Shown: piece after piece, positions 40,433-46,016 of the stretch
Layout of the letters: every line of letters starts with the position of its first letter
Position numbering within the stretch: the stretch's first letter is position 1
From: an uncultured Bacteroidales bacterium
GTDB lineage: Bacteria > Bacteroidota > Bacteroidia > Bacteroidales > UBA932
Direction of reading: 5' to 3'
DNA length: 64,000 bases
NCBI GenBank assembly: GCA_944323445.1
Contig: CALUSM010000009.1
Span: 1-64,000, forward strand
Position numbers and translations under genes: made by a program
The notes under the pieces: generated by a model
What the model was told of the DNA's origin: nothing
Database searches by the model: none
Seen by the model: the letters and a program-made list of their open reading frames with translations, nothing else

Positions 40433-41554
40433 ATGAACAATAAATCAGACAGACAAGGAGACTTTTTCGACGAGTACCGTCATGACGACTCGGCCCTGGT
40501 GATGAACGACGGGGTGGAGCAGCCCCCTATAGTGAATCCCTATCTCGGCAATATGGTCCGGCGCAGGCGCGCTTCCATGACCGTGGATGACTACATGAAA
40601 GGAATCCTGGAGGGCAACACCATCATACTCAGTCAGGCCATCACTCTGGTCGAGAGTTCCCTGCCGGAGCACCGCGACATGGCGCACGAGCTGATAGTGC
40701 GCTGCCTGGAGCATTCCAAGCGCAAGGAGTCCATGCGTATAGGCATTACCGGAGTGCCCGGGGCCGGCAAGAGTACTTTCATCGAGGCTTTCGGCAATCT
40801 GGTCACGGCCAAGGGCCACCGTCTGGCTGTCCTGGCCATCGATCCCAGCAGTGAGAAGACCAAGGGCAGCATCCTCGGAGACAAGACCCGCATGGAGACC
40901 CTCTGCAACAATCCCATGGCCTTTATCCGTCCCAGTCCGTCCGCAGGCTCTCTCGGAGGAGTGGCCCGAAAGACCCGTGAGACCATCCTGCTGTGCGAGG
41001 CAGCCGGCTACGACGTGGTATTCATAGAGACCGTGGGAGTAGGGCAGTCCGAGACGGCGGTGCACTCCATGAGCGACTTTTTCCTGCTGATTCTGATTTC
41101 CGGTGCGGGAGACGACCTCCAGGGTATCAAGCGGGGTGTTATGGAGATGTCCGACCTGATTACCGTGAACAAGGCCGACGGCAACAACATCGACAAGGCC
41201 AACATGGCCCGTGCCCTCTATTCCAACGCCCTGCATCTTTTCCCTCCCACGGAGTCAGGCTGGGCTCCCACCGCCCTTACCGCCTCATCGGTGGAGAAGA
41301 CCGGTCTGGATGACATCTGGGCCATGATGGAGAAGTACTTCAGACTGGTCAAGGGCAACGGCTACTACTGGAAGAGACGCCTGGAGCAGGACCGCTACTG
41401 GATGTACGAGACAATCAACAACTCCCTCCGCGACATGTTCTACGAGGACAAGGCCGTTGCCGCTGCGCTTCCGGATTACGAGAGGGCGGTGCTGGACGGT
41501 AAGATAGACTCCTTCTCTGCCGCAGGCGAGCTTCTCAAACTCTACAGCAGGTAA
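40433..41554 (+). CDS. meaB: Methylmalonyl-CoA mutase-associated GTPase MeaB
   Basis: A 373-residue G3E-family GTPase that loads and protects the adenosylcobalamin cofactor of methylmalonyl-CoA mutase. Walker A is GITGVPGAGKSTFIEAFG near residue 104, the Mg/switch segment is VFIETVGVGQSE near 198, and the guanine-specificity motif is VNKADG near 244. The typical LAIDPSSEKTKGSILGDKTRM follows Walker A. The mutase genes are not in this window; the pathway (succinate-propionate) is common in Bacteroidales. Confidence 0.95.
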   Translation: MNNKSDRQGDFFDEYRHDDSALVMNDGVEQPPIVNPYLGNMVRRRRASMTVDDYMKGILEGNTIILSQAITLVESSLPEHRDMAHELIVRCLEHSKRKESMRIGITGVPGAGKSTFIEAFGNLVTAKGHRLAVLAIDPSSEKTKGSILGDKTRMETLCNNPMAFIRPSPSAGSLGGVARKTRETILLCEAAGYDVVFIETVGVGQSETAVHSMSDFFLLILISGAGDDLQGIKRGVMEMSDLITVNKADGNNIDKANMARALYSNALHLFPPTESGWAPTALTASSVEKTGLDDIWAMMEKYFRLVKGNGYYWKRRLEQDRYWMYETINNSLRDMFYEDKAVAAALPDYERAVLDGKIDSFSAAGELLKLYSR

Positions 41555-41557
41555 CGG

Positions 41558-42646
41558 ATGTTCTGGCATATCGTCAAGGATGTAGTGCTCAATGCCTGGT
41601 TCATCACCTCCCTGGTGATGGTGATGATGATCATGATCGAGTATGTCAATGTGGCCTCCGCCGGACGCTGGTTCGGCAGGCTGAGCGGCTCGCCTGTGCG
41701 TCAGGTGGCGGCCGGAGCCCTTCTCGGCCTGATTCCAGGATGCATAGGCGGTTTTGCGGCCGTGTCGCTGTACTCTCACGGCATCATAAGCATGGGAGCA
41801 CTGGTAGCAGCGATGATAGCCTCTTCCGGTGACGAGTCGTTCGTAATGCTGGCCATGATTCCAAGGCAGGCACTCGTGCTGTTCGCGGTGCTGGCCGTAC
41901 TGGCTTTCGTCTGCGGACTTGTTACCGATGCGGTATTCCGCAGGCATCCTGTCCGCGTGAGCTGTGATCCGGGTTTTGAGATACATGATTCCAACAAAGG
42001 GGAGTTCCCCAGGATATTCCGTCTTTCCTCCTACCGGGGCATGCGCAGTGCCGGTTGGGAGAGGCTGGTGCTGATAGCCGCCATCCTCCTGTTTGCCGTT
42101 GCGGTATTCACCGGCCTGCTGGAGCATGAGCATCCCGGAGACGGGGGCGCTCCGGTGTCAGGAGTGTCTCTCAGTTTTCTGAACGAGAGGTGGATGAACA
42201 TCCTGTTCGCCGTCCTGAGTATTTTCGTTGCCCTGCAGGTGGCCGCTTCTTCGGAGCATTTTGTGAAGGAACATCTGTGGCGTCATGTAGTGTGCAGGCA
42301 TGCGGTCAGGACATTCCTGTGGACAGCCGGGGCACTGGCGGTCATAACGGTAGGCATGCACTATGTGGATATGGGCAACTGGCTGCGGGACAATACATAT
42401 TACCTTCTGATTCTGGCAGCTCTGATCGGCATGATACCGGAGTCCGGTCCGCACATGGTCTTTATCTCCCTCTTTGCCGGTGGCTATGTCCCGTTCTCGG
42501 TTCTGCTCACCAGCTCCATGTCGCAGGACGGCCACACTTCCCTGCCCCTGCTGGCTTCCAGCACCCGCAGCTTCTTGGTGGCCAAGGTCGTCAATGCTGT
42601 TTTCGCCATACTGATCGGTTCAGTGTTCTATCTGTTCGGTTTATAG
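41558..42646 (+). CDS. Putative metal exporter, ArsP_2/10-TM family
   Basis: A 362-residue protein with about ten hydrophobic segments. Two pseudo-symmetric hairpin motifs are visible: ALLGLIPGCIGGFAAVSLYSHG near residue 52-73 and ALIGMIPESGPHMVFISLFAGG near 289-310, typical of this family of predicted heavy-metal or manganese transporters. The sequence between them contains His-rich loops (LLEHEHPGD, SEHFVKEHLWRHVVCRH). It starts 3 bp after meaB, but a metabolic link with MeaB is not obvious. Substrate assignment is family-based and unproven. Confidence 0.75.
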   Translation: MFWHIVKDVVLNAWFITSLVMVMMIMIEYVNVASAGRWFGRLSGSPVRQVAAGALLGLIPGCIGGFAAVSLYSHGIISMGALVAAMIASSGDESFVMLAMIPRQALVLFAVLAVLAFVCGLVTDAVFRRHPVRVSCDPGFEIHDSNKGEFPRIFRLSSYRGMRSAGWERLVLIAAILLFAVAVFTGLLEHEHPGDGGAPVSGVSLSFLNERWMNILFAVLSIFVALQVAASSEHFVKEHLWRHVVCRHAVRTFLWTAGALAVITVGMHYVDMGNWLRDNTYYLLILAALIGMIPESGPHMVFISLFAGGYVPFSVLLTSSMSQDGHTSLPLLASSTRSFLVAKVVNAVFAILIGSVFYLFGL

Positions 42647-42680
42647 AGAGCCTGAAAGACATAGAAACACTGGAGTTGAC

Positions 42681-42700
42681 CGAAGATATCTGCCTCTTCG
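42681..42700. terminator. Short hairpin after the metal exporter gene
   Basis: CGAAGA and TCTTCG form a 6-bp stem with 8-nt loop 34 nt past the exporter stop. There is no T-tract, so a terminator role is weakly supported. Confidence 0.25.
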
Positions 42701-42734
42701 CAGGTGTACCGAAATGTGGGGAGAATCAGTTAAA

Positions 42735-42839
42735 TGATTATCCGCAAAGTGCTCCTAAGTGCAGTCTATGCGAAGGTATGCACTTTGGAGGACTGCTGGC
42801 GGTGTAAATAGAGCTACTGATAAATTTTGCGGATAATCA
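42735..42839. repeat. Nested inverted-repeat element, 105 bp
   Basis: TGATTATCCGCAAA (42735-42748) and its exact complement TTTGCGGATAATCA (42826-42839) bound the segment. Inside, 42748-42763 pairs with 42779-42794 (AGT, CTCC and AAGTGCA with ACT, GGAG and TGCACTT, broken by two symmetric single mismatches) around a 15-nt loop. The innermost base A42748 is shared by both helices. No convincing ORF lies within it. It ends 21 bp before the IS element. It may be a small non-autonomous mobile element, a structured RNA or a protein-binding site; I cannot decide. Confidence 0.6.
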
Positions 42840-42860
42840 CACTTTTAACTTGAAAGAATG

Positions 42861-43737
42861 TAAGAAGCTGTTTAAAATTTATTCAAAAATAATTTTATGG
42901 CAGCGATATGCAGCATGGCTTCGTGCGTGTCAGCCCTGTATTCATAATCAATGGTCAGTCTCCTGAAGTTTTCAAGCCAGGAGAAAGTGCGCTCGACAAT
43001 CCATCTTTTTGGCATGGGAAGAAATCTGTCCGTCTGTTTGTCAGACCTGAGTACGACATCCAGGTCACAACGCAGCAGTCTCTTGACCGTGTTCCTGACT
43101 GCCTCGCCTCTGTAGCCTCCGTCCGCCAGAATCCGTTTCAGTCCGGGGAATTTGTATCTCATGGATTCGAACACATCTTCCGCTCCGACACTGTCATGGA
43201 CGTTAGCCGGATGGACTCTAATTGACATGGGCAGCCCCAGGGTGTCAACCACTATGTGCTCCTTCCTTCCCTTTATCTTTTTGTTGCCGTCTATCCCCCT
43301 CTGACCGTCAATGTGATGGGAGGTCTTGACACTCCTTGAATCTATGATTCCAAGGCTGGGACTCTCGGTCCGGCCCGAAAGACGTCGCACTATGCCGCGG
43401 AGGGTGTCGAAGATCTCTTCAAGCAAGCCCTCGTTCTTCCACTTGCTGAAATAGTAATACACTGTCTGCCACGGAGCGAAATCCGAGGGAAGCATTCTCC
43501 ACTGCACGCCGGTCTTCACGATGTACAGGATGCCGTCAAAAACTGAACGCAGCGAATATTTTCTGAATCTTTCTTTGGGGTCCAGCATATTTTTTATAAC
43601 TTGCCACTGTTTATCAGTCAGGTTGGTTGGGTATTTGTGCATAACATTAATGTCTTGACAACCTTAAAGTTACGAAAAATATTCCGATTAACCTACTGAT
43701 TTACAATTAATTATAAATAAATTTAAACAACTTCTTA
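42861..43737 (-). mobile_element. IS5-family insertion sequence (877 bp)
   Basis: One transposase gene is bounded by imperfect terminal inverted repeats: TAAGAAGCTGTTTAAAATTT at the left end (42861 on) and, on the opposite strand at the right end, TAAGAAGTTGTTTAAATTTA (ending 43737). GAAT occurs at 42856-42859 and 43738-43741, a possible target duplication, but it is offset by one base on the left, so the exact boundaries are uncertain. The single intact ORF and conserved catalytic residues suggest a recent, possibly active copy. Confidence 0.88.
42872..43642 (-). CDS. IS5-family transposase (DDE)
   Basis: A 256-residue transposase. The N-terminal DUF4096-like DNA-binding part reads YPTNLTDKQWQVIKNML and GVQWRMLPSDFAPWQTVYYYFSKW. 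The catalytic triad is Asp101 (GIIDSRSVKTS), Asp174 (ILADGGYRG) and Glu217 (WIVERTFSWLENFRRL). The last motif is the Y2/C1-type signature common in IS5-like elements. The reading frame is intact with no frameshift. It lies between the terminal repeats given above and points toward the nested palindrome. Confidence 0.95.
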   Translation of the reverse strand: MHKYPTNLTDKQWQVIKNMLDPKERFRKYSLRSVFDGILYIVKTGVQWRMLPSDFAPWQTVYYYFSKWKNEGLLEEIFDTLRGIVRRLSGRTESPSLGIIDSRSVKTSHHIDGQRGIDGNKKIKGRKEHIVVDTLGLPMSIRVHPANVHDSVGAEDVFESMRYKFPGLKRILADGGYRGEAVRNTVKRLLRCDLDVVLRSDKQTDRFLPMPKRWIVERTFSWLENFRRLTIDYEYRADTHEAMLHIAAIKLFLNKF

Positions 43738-43765
43738 GAATAATAACAAATATTAAATAATAATT

Positions 43766-44599
43766 ATGAAAAAGGATTTGTTATACACAATTTTCAGTTT
43801 TGTGCTGTCTGTCTTCCTGATGTCGTGCCAAAAGTCAGAAGCACCTGTGCCGGGAGTCGGCGTGGAGAGGCAGAATTTTATAACACATTATTTCATGCCC
43901 GATACCCTTAAAGTGGATCCGGGAGTCCTTGATGAGGATGACCCCGCCTATCCTTATTCCAAGTACGAATATTTTGTTCGTCTTGTCTGTCTTAATTATA
44001 TCCCTGGAGACGACACTGTTATGATGAGCAAATATTCAGACACGGCTTTTTGCGGGAGGTTCTGGACATCTGTGCCTGCCTTAGGCAAAGTTATAACGGA
44101 TGTGACGCTTACTGCCATAGACGATTATAATGCCAATTATCCGGCCGGCTCCTGTCTGGATGACATAGCCTACGTCAGCTACTGTTCGTATTATCCTTAT
44201 ATCAGCAGGGGATATGTCAAGTATCCGAATCTATATGTCAACGGATATGAAGACTCCGCCAGAGCCTGCGACGTAGTGCCGGGACAGACTGGAGATGAGT
44301 TATATGACATGATTAACCGGAACGGCTTGCCTGGTGTAGGAAGTGTTTTTTACTGGGATATCCGTGTGTCTGAGCTGCAGGATGTACCGTTGGCTTATCC
44401 GTTGCCATGGTCCAGGACATTTTTCTATAGCGGGGAGCATGATCCCGATAATCTGTTTCCGGATACGTACCGTGGTCTGGATGCGACAGTGGCGATGTTG
44501 AGATTTTCGGAGAAGCCGTCGTCAGAGAATGTGAAGGTAGAGGTCACCATGACATTTGATGACGGTACATCCCTGAGCTGCGTGTTGGTACATGCATGA
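43766..44599 (+). CDS. Hypothetical lipoprotein
   Basis: A 277-residue exported protein with signal peptide and lipobox VFLMSC (Cys21). The rest is rich in Tyr, Asp and Pro, with a Cys-containing centre (YCSYYPYISRGYVKYPN) and a C-terminal beta-rich part ending TMTFDDGTSLSCVLVHA. I do not recognise the family. It starts only 28 bp from the right end of the IS element, so its native upstream region has been displaced or replaced. No TAnnTTTG element is visible between the IS end and the start codon. Confidence 0.75.
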   Translation: MKKDLLYTIFSFVLSVFLMSCQKSEAPVPGVGVERQNFITHYFMPDTLKVDPGVLDEDDPAYPYSKYEYFVRLVCLNYIPGDDTVMMSKYSDTAFCGRFWTSVPALGKVITDVTLTAIDDYNANYPAGSCLDDIAYVSYCSYYPYISRGYVKYPNLYVNGYEDSARACDVVPGQTGDELYDMINRNGLPGVGSVFYWDIRVSELQDVPLAYPLPWSRTFFYSGEHDPDNLFPDTYRGLDATVAMLRFSEKPSSENVKVEVTMTFDDGTSLSCVLVHA

Positions 44600-44636
44600 T
44601 CACACAGCGGCTCTTAAGTACTGGAAACAGAAATTG

Positions 44637-46016
44637 CTATTGAAGTCGGCGGAAAAGCAGGCGGGACGGGCGGCGCTCCTGGGTGAGCCGTCCGTCTTTT
44701 ACTGTATGCGCTCCGTTGACGAAGGTGTCGGTGACGGCCCAGTCGAAGCTCACTCCTTCGAGAGGAGACCAACCGCAGCGGTAGGCGATGTTGTCCTTGG
44801 ATACGGTCCATCTGCGTCGGCGTACCATGACCAGGTCCGCCCAGTATCCTTCGCGGATGTAGCCGCGTCTGTCTATGCGGAACAGGTCGGCCGGAGAGTG
44901 GGACATCATCCTGACAACCTGCTCTATGGGGAAGCAGCCGCGGTCAGCGAGCTGGAGCATCATCACCAGGGAGTGCTGTACGGTAGGCAGACCGGAGGGG
45001 GCGTGCAGGTAGTCCTGCATTTTTTCGGGGTACAGGTGGGGTGCGTGATCGGTGGCGACAGCCTGTACCCGGCCATCGCGGACTGCTGCGGTGATGGCCT
45101 CCCGGTCTGCAGCGGTCTTTATGGCGGGGTTGCACTTGATCCGGGAACCGCAGCGGTCATAGTCTCTCTCGTCGAACCACATGTAGTGTACGCATACTTC
45201 GGCGCTTATGCCTGGGTGTGTCTTACGGGCCTCAGATACCATGTCCAGCTCGTCTGACGTGCTGACGTGAAGGATGTGCAGTCTGGTACCGTGTCTTTCG
45301 GCCATTTCTACGGCCTTGGAGGATGAGAGGATGCAGGCCTCGCGGCTGCGTATCATGGGATGGGCGCTGAAAGGGATGCTGTCGTCGCCGTATCGGGTGC
45401 GGGCGGCTGCCAGGTTGCTACGTATTGTGGCCTCGTCCTCGCAGTGGACAGCTATGATTCTGTCTTTAAGCGAGAATATCTTTTCGAGAGTTTCCTGCGA
45501 GTCTACGAGCATGTTTCCGGTGGAGGAACCCATGAATACCTTGATGCCGCAGATGCGGCTTGGATCGGTGCTGCGCAGTTCTTCTATATTGTCATTGGTG
45601 GCTCCTATATAGAAAGAGTAGTTGGCGAGGGAGTCCCTGGCAGCGGTGGTGTATTTCTCCTCGAGGGCGGAGAGGGTGGTGGCCGGAGGGGTGTTGTTGG
45701 GCATGTCCATAAATGAGGTGGTGCCTCCCAGGACTGCTGCCGCACTCTCGGATGCGATGCTTCCCTTGGCGGTGGCACCCGGCTCGCGGAAATGCACCTG
45801 GTCATCGATGACGCCCGGGAGGAGAAGAGCATCCTGACCTCCGTCGATGATCTCTTCTGCGGACAGCGCGGCATCCCGCACAGCCGTATCGTATCCGGAT
45901 TCCCGGTGTATCATTACTTTGGATATGAGACCATTCCGTATCAGGACACTGCCTTCTATGGTGTGTCCTTCGTTGACTATGTGTATGTCCCTGATGAGTA
46001 CCGATCCTGGTGTCAT
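44637..46016 (-). CDS. pyrC: Dihydroorotase
   Basis: A 459-residue amidohydrolase closing carbamoyl-aspartate to dihydroorotate. Metal ligands are in LPGVIDDQVHFREPG near residue 65-79, where the usual HxH appears as DQVHF with Asp in place of the first His. Further features are TTSFMDMPNN near 98, IAVHCEDE near 192, LHILHVSTSDE near 248 and VATDHAPH near 308. The first metal His replacement is seen in other Bacteroidota class I dihydroorotases but deserves checking. Its start overlaps the upstream glycosyltransferase stop by 4 bp (ATGA). Confidence 0.9.
   Translation of the reverse strand: MTPGSVLIRDIHIVNEGHTIEGSVLIRNGLISKVMIHRESGYDTAVRDAALSAEEIIDGGQDALLLPGVIDDQVHFREPGATAKGSIASESAAAVLGGTTSFMDMPNNTPPATTLSALEEKYTTAARDSLANYSFYIGATNDNIEELRSTDPSRICGIKVFMGSSTGNMLVDSQETLEKIFSLKDRIIAVHCEDEATIRSNLAAARTRYGDDSIPFSAHPMIRSREACILSSSKAVEMAERHGTRLHILHVSTSDELDMVSEARKTHPGISAEVCVHYMWFDERDYDRCGSRIKCNPAIKTAADREAITAAVRDGRVQAVATDHAPHLYPEKMQDYLHAPSGLPTVQHSLVMMLQLADRGCFPIEQVVRMMSHSPADLFRIDRRGYIREGYWADLVMVRRRRWTVSKDNIAYRCGWSPLEGVSFDWAVTDTFVNGAHTVKDGRLTQERRPSRLLFRRLQ

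Follow-up and report, generated by a model that had tools for sequence, protein, structure and literature searches.

What is the 105-bp nested inverted repeat that lies between a heavy-metal exporter gene and an insertion sequence in the genome of an uncultured Bacteroidales bacterium? The window, that is the whole 64,000-nt stretch of DNA that was analysed, comes from a genome of the genus Candidatus Coprenecus. The original prediction had left the nature of the repeat open between, a miniature inverted-repeat element, a structured RNA, an attachment site and a regulator of the exporter transcript. Our analysis strongly favors the first of these, and we consider the element most likely to be a MITE, a short transposon that does not encode its own transposase, of IS1595 type. 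This reading is based on dispersed copies that form inverted pairs, 8-bp target duplications, empty sites and IS1595 loci with the same ends.

Both repeats were located as predicted (Table 1). The outer arms, 14 nt long and 100% complementary, enclose an imperfect hairpin with arms of 16 nt (42748-42763 and 42779-42794, 88% complementary), and base 42748 is common to both. The DNA fold of positions 42720-42860 had a z-score of -6.45. Folded as RNA, the whole element gave z = -5.44 on the plus and -5.77 on the minus strand and the inner hairpin alone z = -4.92, with 0 of 200 shuffles as good in each case. Within the 64-kb window the 14-mer was found with up to two mismatches at two places only, namely the two arms (0.35 expected; two or more in 5 of 100 shuffles). 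This number is only mildly unusual; what stands out is the perfect inverted pairing together with the fold. In agreement with the original prediction, no ORF was found inside the 105 bp; one mechanical ORF (42190-42807) extends from the exporter gene, in a different reading frame, into the element. The window copy is thus short (105 bp), without a transposase gene and bounded by perfect 14-bp terminal inverted repeats, as is expected of a MITE. The adjoining IS5-family element starts 21 bp after it and carries a transposase gene (42872-43642) with the domains DDE_Tnp_1 and DUF4096; its terminal repeats (42861-42879 and 43719-43737) are indeed unlike the 14-mer.

Table 1. Features of the 105-bp element and its surroundings (positions in the window).
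Feature	Position	Strand	Basis and remarks
Left terminal repeat	42735..42748	+	TGATTATCCGCAAA; inverted-repeat search, exact genome copies, consensus of ends
Right terminal repeat, same 14-mer on minus strand	42826..42839	-	Inverted-repeat search, exact genome copies
Stretch like the end of a recurrent Coprenecus MITE class	42735..42781	+	74-81% identity
Inner imperfect hairpin, apparently private to the window copy	42748..42794	+	Repeat search, fold; aligned class copies without counterpart
Position of left 8-bp target copy	42725..42732	.	ATCAGTTA; geometry from family pairs; mismatches the right one
Position of right 8-bp target copy	42842..42849	.	CTTTTAAC; geometry from family pairs; no duplication of the left one
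17 bases; the DNA that follows the exporter gene shares 16 of them in two relatives and 14 in another	42815..42831	+	Ends inside right arm at TTTGCG
Neighbouring ArsP_2 heavy-metal exporter gene	41558..42646	+	Stop 88 bp before the element
Neighbouring IS5-family insertion sequence, ends unrelated to the 14-mer	42861..43737	-	Domain matches, terminal repeats

A search for other copies in inverted pairs, which the original prediction had proposed as a check, returned many, contrary to the absence of other copies that would have spoken against the prediction. The own genome (2.29 Mb in 59 contigs, 89% complete) contains 18 exact copies of the 14-mer and 48 copies with up to two mismatches, compared to 6 for a reversed control pattern. 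The interior of the window copy is unique in this genome, unlike its ends with their many dispersed copies. Our survey of the 14-mer covered 59 genomes including the own one, 19 of the genus and 40 from outside. Within the genus, 85 exact copies were found in 15 of the 19 genomes (own included); outside, five of 40 genomes had the 14-mer in one copy each, and these single copies may not all be MITE ends. A scan of named contigs with TGATTATCCGCAAANNTNCCC revealed at least 113 stretches with a match, and among the matches listed are Coprenecus, Merdivivens, Cryptobacteroides, Muribaculaceae, Symbiothrix, a Chitinophagaceae MAG, Algoriphagus and others, while viral contigs searched with TGATTATCCGCAAANNTNCCC gave no match. 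The spread of the motif is patchy, since in an even sample of the order only one of 392 genomes, the own genome, was positive. In Algoriphagus alkaliphilus (the genome of L119; L228-L255) the 14-mer occurs 51 times with at most one mismatch. Many of these copies take the form TGATTATCCGCAAT, share a flank and have a near-inverted counterpart at a distance of 59 bp; they have the appearance of a further hairpin repeat that is related to the ends.

The consensus of 84 distinct ends (up to one mismatch, loci L001-L098) reads A-TGATTATCCGCAAA-GATACCCCT, and the flank outside it is rich in A+T. The terminal repeat can be written as about (W)ATGATTATCCGCAAA-N-ATACCCC, and the 14-bp arms of the window copy are its outer part. 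Ends pair head to head at distances of 42-987 bp in 48 distinct pairs, defined by distinct flanks, a nearest opposite end within 30-1400 bp, up to two mismatches in each end and at least one exact end; the same insertion in related genomes is counted separately here, and some pairs join wrong partners, as in the case of L064, which was paired to sequence within its own element. The terminal repeat is common to many elements that have no transposase gene and differ in their interiors, and no transposase gene was seen in the MITE interiors inspected. The interiors do contain recurrent modules that have their own inverted repeats, e.g. CACGTTACTTTTTAGTT..AACTAAAAAGTAACGTG. This module of about 180 bp (CACGTTACTTTTTAGTT / AACTAAAAAGTAACGTG), a second inverted-repeat unit, sits inside several MITEs at different places (L004:1532-1708, L002:637-815, L010:1529-1709) and may represent a separate MITE family. 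The shortest pairs, L147:395-436 (42 bp) and L135:3771-3841 (71 bp), are near-pure palindromes of two ends. At three loci (L006, L167 and L181) one and the same gene (protein start MEFLYIGIIIFLFCLAISDIIVG), which resembles that of a phosphate permease, comes after the MITE end, and the end beside it is perhaps an old shared insertion. Furthermore, TAnnTTTG is present in the outward direction at 127 of the 170 distinct exact ends, and this sequence resembles the -7 box of Bacteroidota. We considered an outward promoter as a selected function and rejected it: among 115 ends with a predicted gene (crude ORFs) within 400 bp, a gene start was faced by 38 of the 84 ends with the box but by 23 of the 31 ends that lack it, contrary to what a promoter role would predict.

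Insertion of the family into host DNA is indicated by an 8-bp direct repeat that begins two bases outside the 14-mer in the 48 pairs. The repeat is perfect in 14 pairs and identical at seven or more of the eight positions in 18, whereas in 500 shuffled pairings the latter threshold was reached by 0.88 pairs on average and by 4 at most; the other 30 pairs are without clear duplication. Identity reached 58-69% within the eight positions against 27-40% in the two positions on either side (shuffled control 29-41%). Empty sites, also proposed as a check, were found for an 883-bp copy of a relative (L081 in G017), the flanks of which meet in two other genomes (L072 in G013 and L063 in G015) with an overlap of 9-10 bases. 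By sequence comparison L072 and L063 read as empty sites of L081 with one copy of the duplicated stretch, which is of low complexity and does not by itself give the exact length of the duplication. Enzymes of another type, the REP-associated tyrosine transposases, act on hairpins as single strands and are not known to make a target duplication. A REP/BIME-like repeat moved by such an enzyme would account for hairpins in many copies, and a gene beside an exact MITE end of the own genome (L003, 266-1204, minus strand) weakly matches NF047646, REP-associated tyrosine transposase (29 bits, cut-off 80). However, the family has 8-bp duplications, the L003 gene has no Pfam match, and tblastn with it returned only itself and one weak match among the loci then collected. 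The combination that marks a REP/BIME with its transposase, a linked transposase gene and no target duplication, was not what we found, and we regard this explanation as extremely unlikely.

Our search for a source of mobility instead led to IS1595 transposases. In two genomes chosen for the motif, elements with ends AATGATTATCCGCATA.. surround broken IS1595 transposase genes. The IS1595 domain PF12762 is present in three of the 19 genomes of the genus and in five of 12 genomes reached through named loci, and the transposase of L257 as query had matches in 18 of 149 genomes of the family. When inverted repeats were sought around three IS1595 genes of the genus, only L257 showed related ends (AATGAATACTAAATTC.. 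and AATGATTACTAAATG..); its end differs from TGATTATCCG, and L257 served as identity reference and is counted apart from the 21 related loci. The comparison of ends covered 36 of 40 loci, as L260 had no match and L298, L304 and L306 were removed as duplicates. Among the 21 loci that are 43-80% identical to L257, TGATTATCCG was exact at one or both ends in 11, which stem from seven genomes, while two had it with one mismatch and eight had none within one mismatch (in several of these the contig stops at the gene); for some motif-bearing loci the source genomes had been picked for carrying the motif. Out of 14 distant IS1595 loci (22-30% identity) none carried an exact TGATTATCCG and three had a match with two mismatches. 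Among the loci compared, the 15 that stem from an independent protein search of the family include five with exact TGATTATCCG and two more with one mismatch. The left end of L286, AATGATTATCCGCAAAAGTACCCAT, is the MITE end at 14 of 14 positions of the full 14-mer, and its transposase of 312 aa matches PF12762, PF12760 and NF033547. Its right end was not found, and no intact IS1595 element with the 14-mer at both ends was found among the loci examined. An autonomous element was also sought via recurrent ORFs between ends (194 distinct ends, 706 ORFs), with no transposase among the clusters listed; this search ignored ORF pairs with 99% or higher identity and could miss very recent copies. A transposase that fits the ends is missing from most genomes examined, and the own genome encodes only a distant, broken IS1595-type gene (L258, C22:17102-17332; 25% identity to L257).

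As far as the consulted part of PMC8101967 goes, IS1595 elements usually make 8-bp duplications, and relatives are described with GG at their tips (Merlin). The family follows the first of these features and the window copy does not, and the tips of the MITE-family ends carry no GG, unlike the described relatives. We suggest that an IS1595 transposase supplied in trans would bind both ends and would move whatever lies between them, and that each insertion would leave an 8-bp target duplication.

The state of the window copy has to be considered separately from that of the family. The resemblance of its first 47 bp to one recurrent MITE class (best E 5.6e-5, others weaker) extends beyond the 14-mer with an agreement that was matched by 0 of 5000 shuffles. 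For its right interior and subterminal sequence no other end matched better than shuffles, and the inner hairpin had no counterpart in the aligned copies of the related class. A target duplication is absent, with ATCAGTTA and CTTTTAAC at the expected places. Because there is no duplication and only the left 47 bp resemble a known class, the window copy is probably an old, immobile member of a Bacteroidota IS1595-type MITE family. Such a relic would have kept two perfect 14-mers and lost its duplication and most of the subterminal ATACCCC, and the inner hairpin would be a private later change. A match of 24-25 nt between about 42778-42802 and a coding gene in four genomes (E 0.015-0.017) was taken as chance.

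The missing duplication would also fit a rearrangement junction, in which a MITE left end is followed by a second MITE end that joins the host DNA behind the exporter at TTTGCG. The right interior is unlike other ends, yet it has 14-17 bases in common with exporter-downstream DNA in G003, G014 and G007, ending TTTTGCG. In these three genomes TGATAAATTTTGCG is found behind the exporter and before secA, and it recurs in the window, where it extends to the point at which the right arm begins. The genes for the exporter and secA adjoin in all three and lie on different contigs in the own genome. However, the bases in common form only a short stretch (in the three comparisons 0, 3 and 0 of 500 shuffles were as good), which was spotted by eye before testing, and the own secA locus contains no MITE end within three mismatches in 3,360 bp. 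We therefore treat the junction as a tentative and rather unlikely history, under which the window copy would still be made of IS1595-type MITE ends.

No support was obtained for the proposed attachment site, nor for a structured RNA or a terminator or other regulator of the exporter transcript. The strong fold on both strands and the short distance to the exporter stop would be in keeping with a role in the exporter transcript. The sole Rfam match up to E = 5 in 41500-44800 lies outside the element at 44491-44578 and falls below the curated score, though, and no terminator-like site was found in 42600-43000. Another 16 genomes of the genus lack the 14-mer (up to two mismatches) downstream of their exporter gene, where 1500 bp were examined in most and 395 bp in one, and copies occur at many unrelated places. 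Nothing was found in favor of a role in exporter regulation, which as primary explanation appears very unlikely; the hairpin may have a secondary effect on the transcript. Behind the exporter gene in two relatives (L041 and L042; G003:C19 and G014:C4) we observed an intergenic element of another kind. Its bounds, CTGAAAAG..CTTTTCAG, are part of a longer inverted repeat, and by eye it has opposite orientations in G003 and G014, as if the segment had been inverted.

The IS1595-type MITE is a known kind of element. A description of the present Coprenecus/Bacteroidota family was not found in the literature searched by title and start of abstract, nor was the 14-mer found on either strand in the papers searched. 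Table 4 of PMC3852290 includes an IS1595-family MITE of Haloquadratum walsbyi, related to ISHwa6, that is non-coding and 165 bp long with 25-bp inverted repeats and 8-bp direct repeats. Judged from that entry, the two are alike in being short and non-coding, with inverted repeats and 8-bp direct repeats under IS1595. The Haloquadratum element is archaeal and is likened here by description, not by terminal sequence, whereas the present family spans 42-987 bp with differing interiors. The IS1595 insertion sequences L286, L301, L268 and others have ends of the form (A/T)ATGATTATCCG, the same kind of terminal repeat as the MITEs; they differ in having a gene, intact or as a remnant, for a transposase of about 300-320 aa, whereas the window element encodes nothing. 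Within Bacteroidota, BrickBuilt, MITEPgRS and other MITEs of Porphyromonas gingivalis likewise show nested repeats and shared ends around differing interiors, but in the consulted part of that source they have ends such as GAGACCTTTGCA, are tied to IS5-family elements and have variable duplications (PMC4596501).

An even chance may be given to a broader reading, a MITE superfamily across much of Bacteroidota (Coprenecus, Merdivivens, Cryptobacteroides, Muribaculaceae, a Chitinophagaceae MAG and others). Conservation would be limited to roughly the outer 22 bp and interiors would be exchanged freely, so that an IS1595 transposase could move intergenic DNA of any kind. If so, its range would extend to the 42-bp element, which is little more than two ends. 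The window copy is an ordinary relic, and the interest lies in the family with its constant ends, exchangeable interiors and a fitting transposase that is mostly missing. The IS1595-type MITE reading would explain why a repeat is so abundant in a gut genus that has received little study, and the 14-mer together with the 8-bp duplication rule may serve to annotate such elements in other Bacteroidota genomes.
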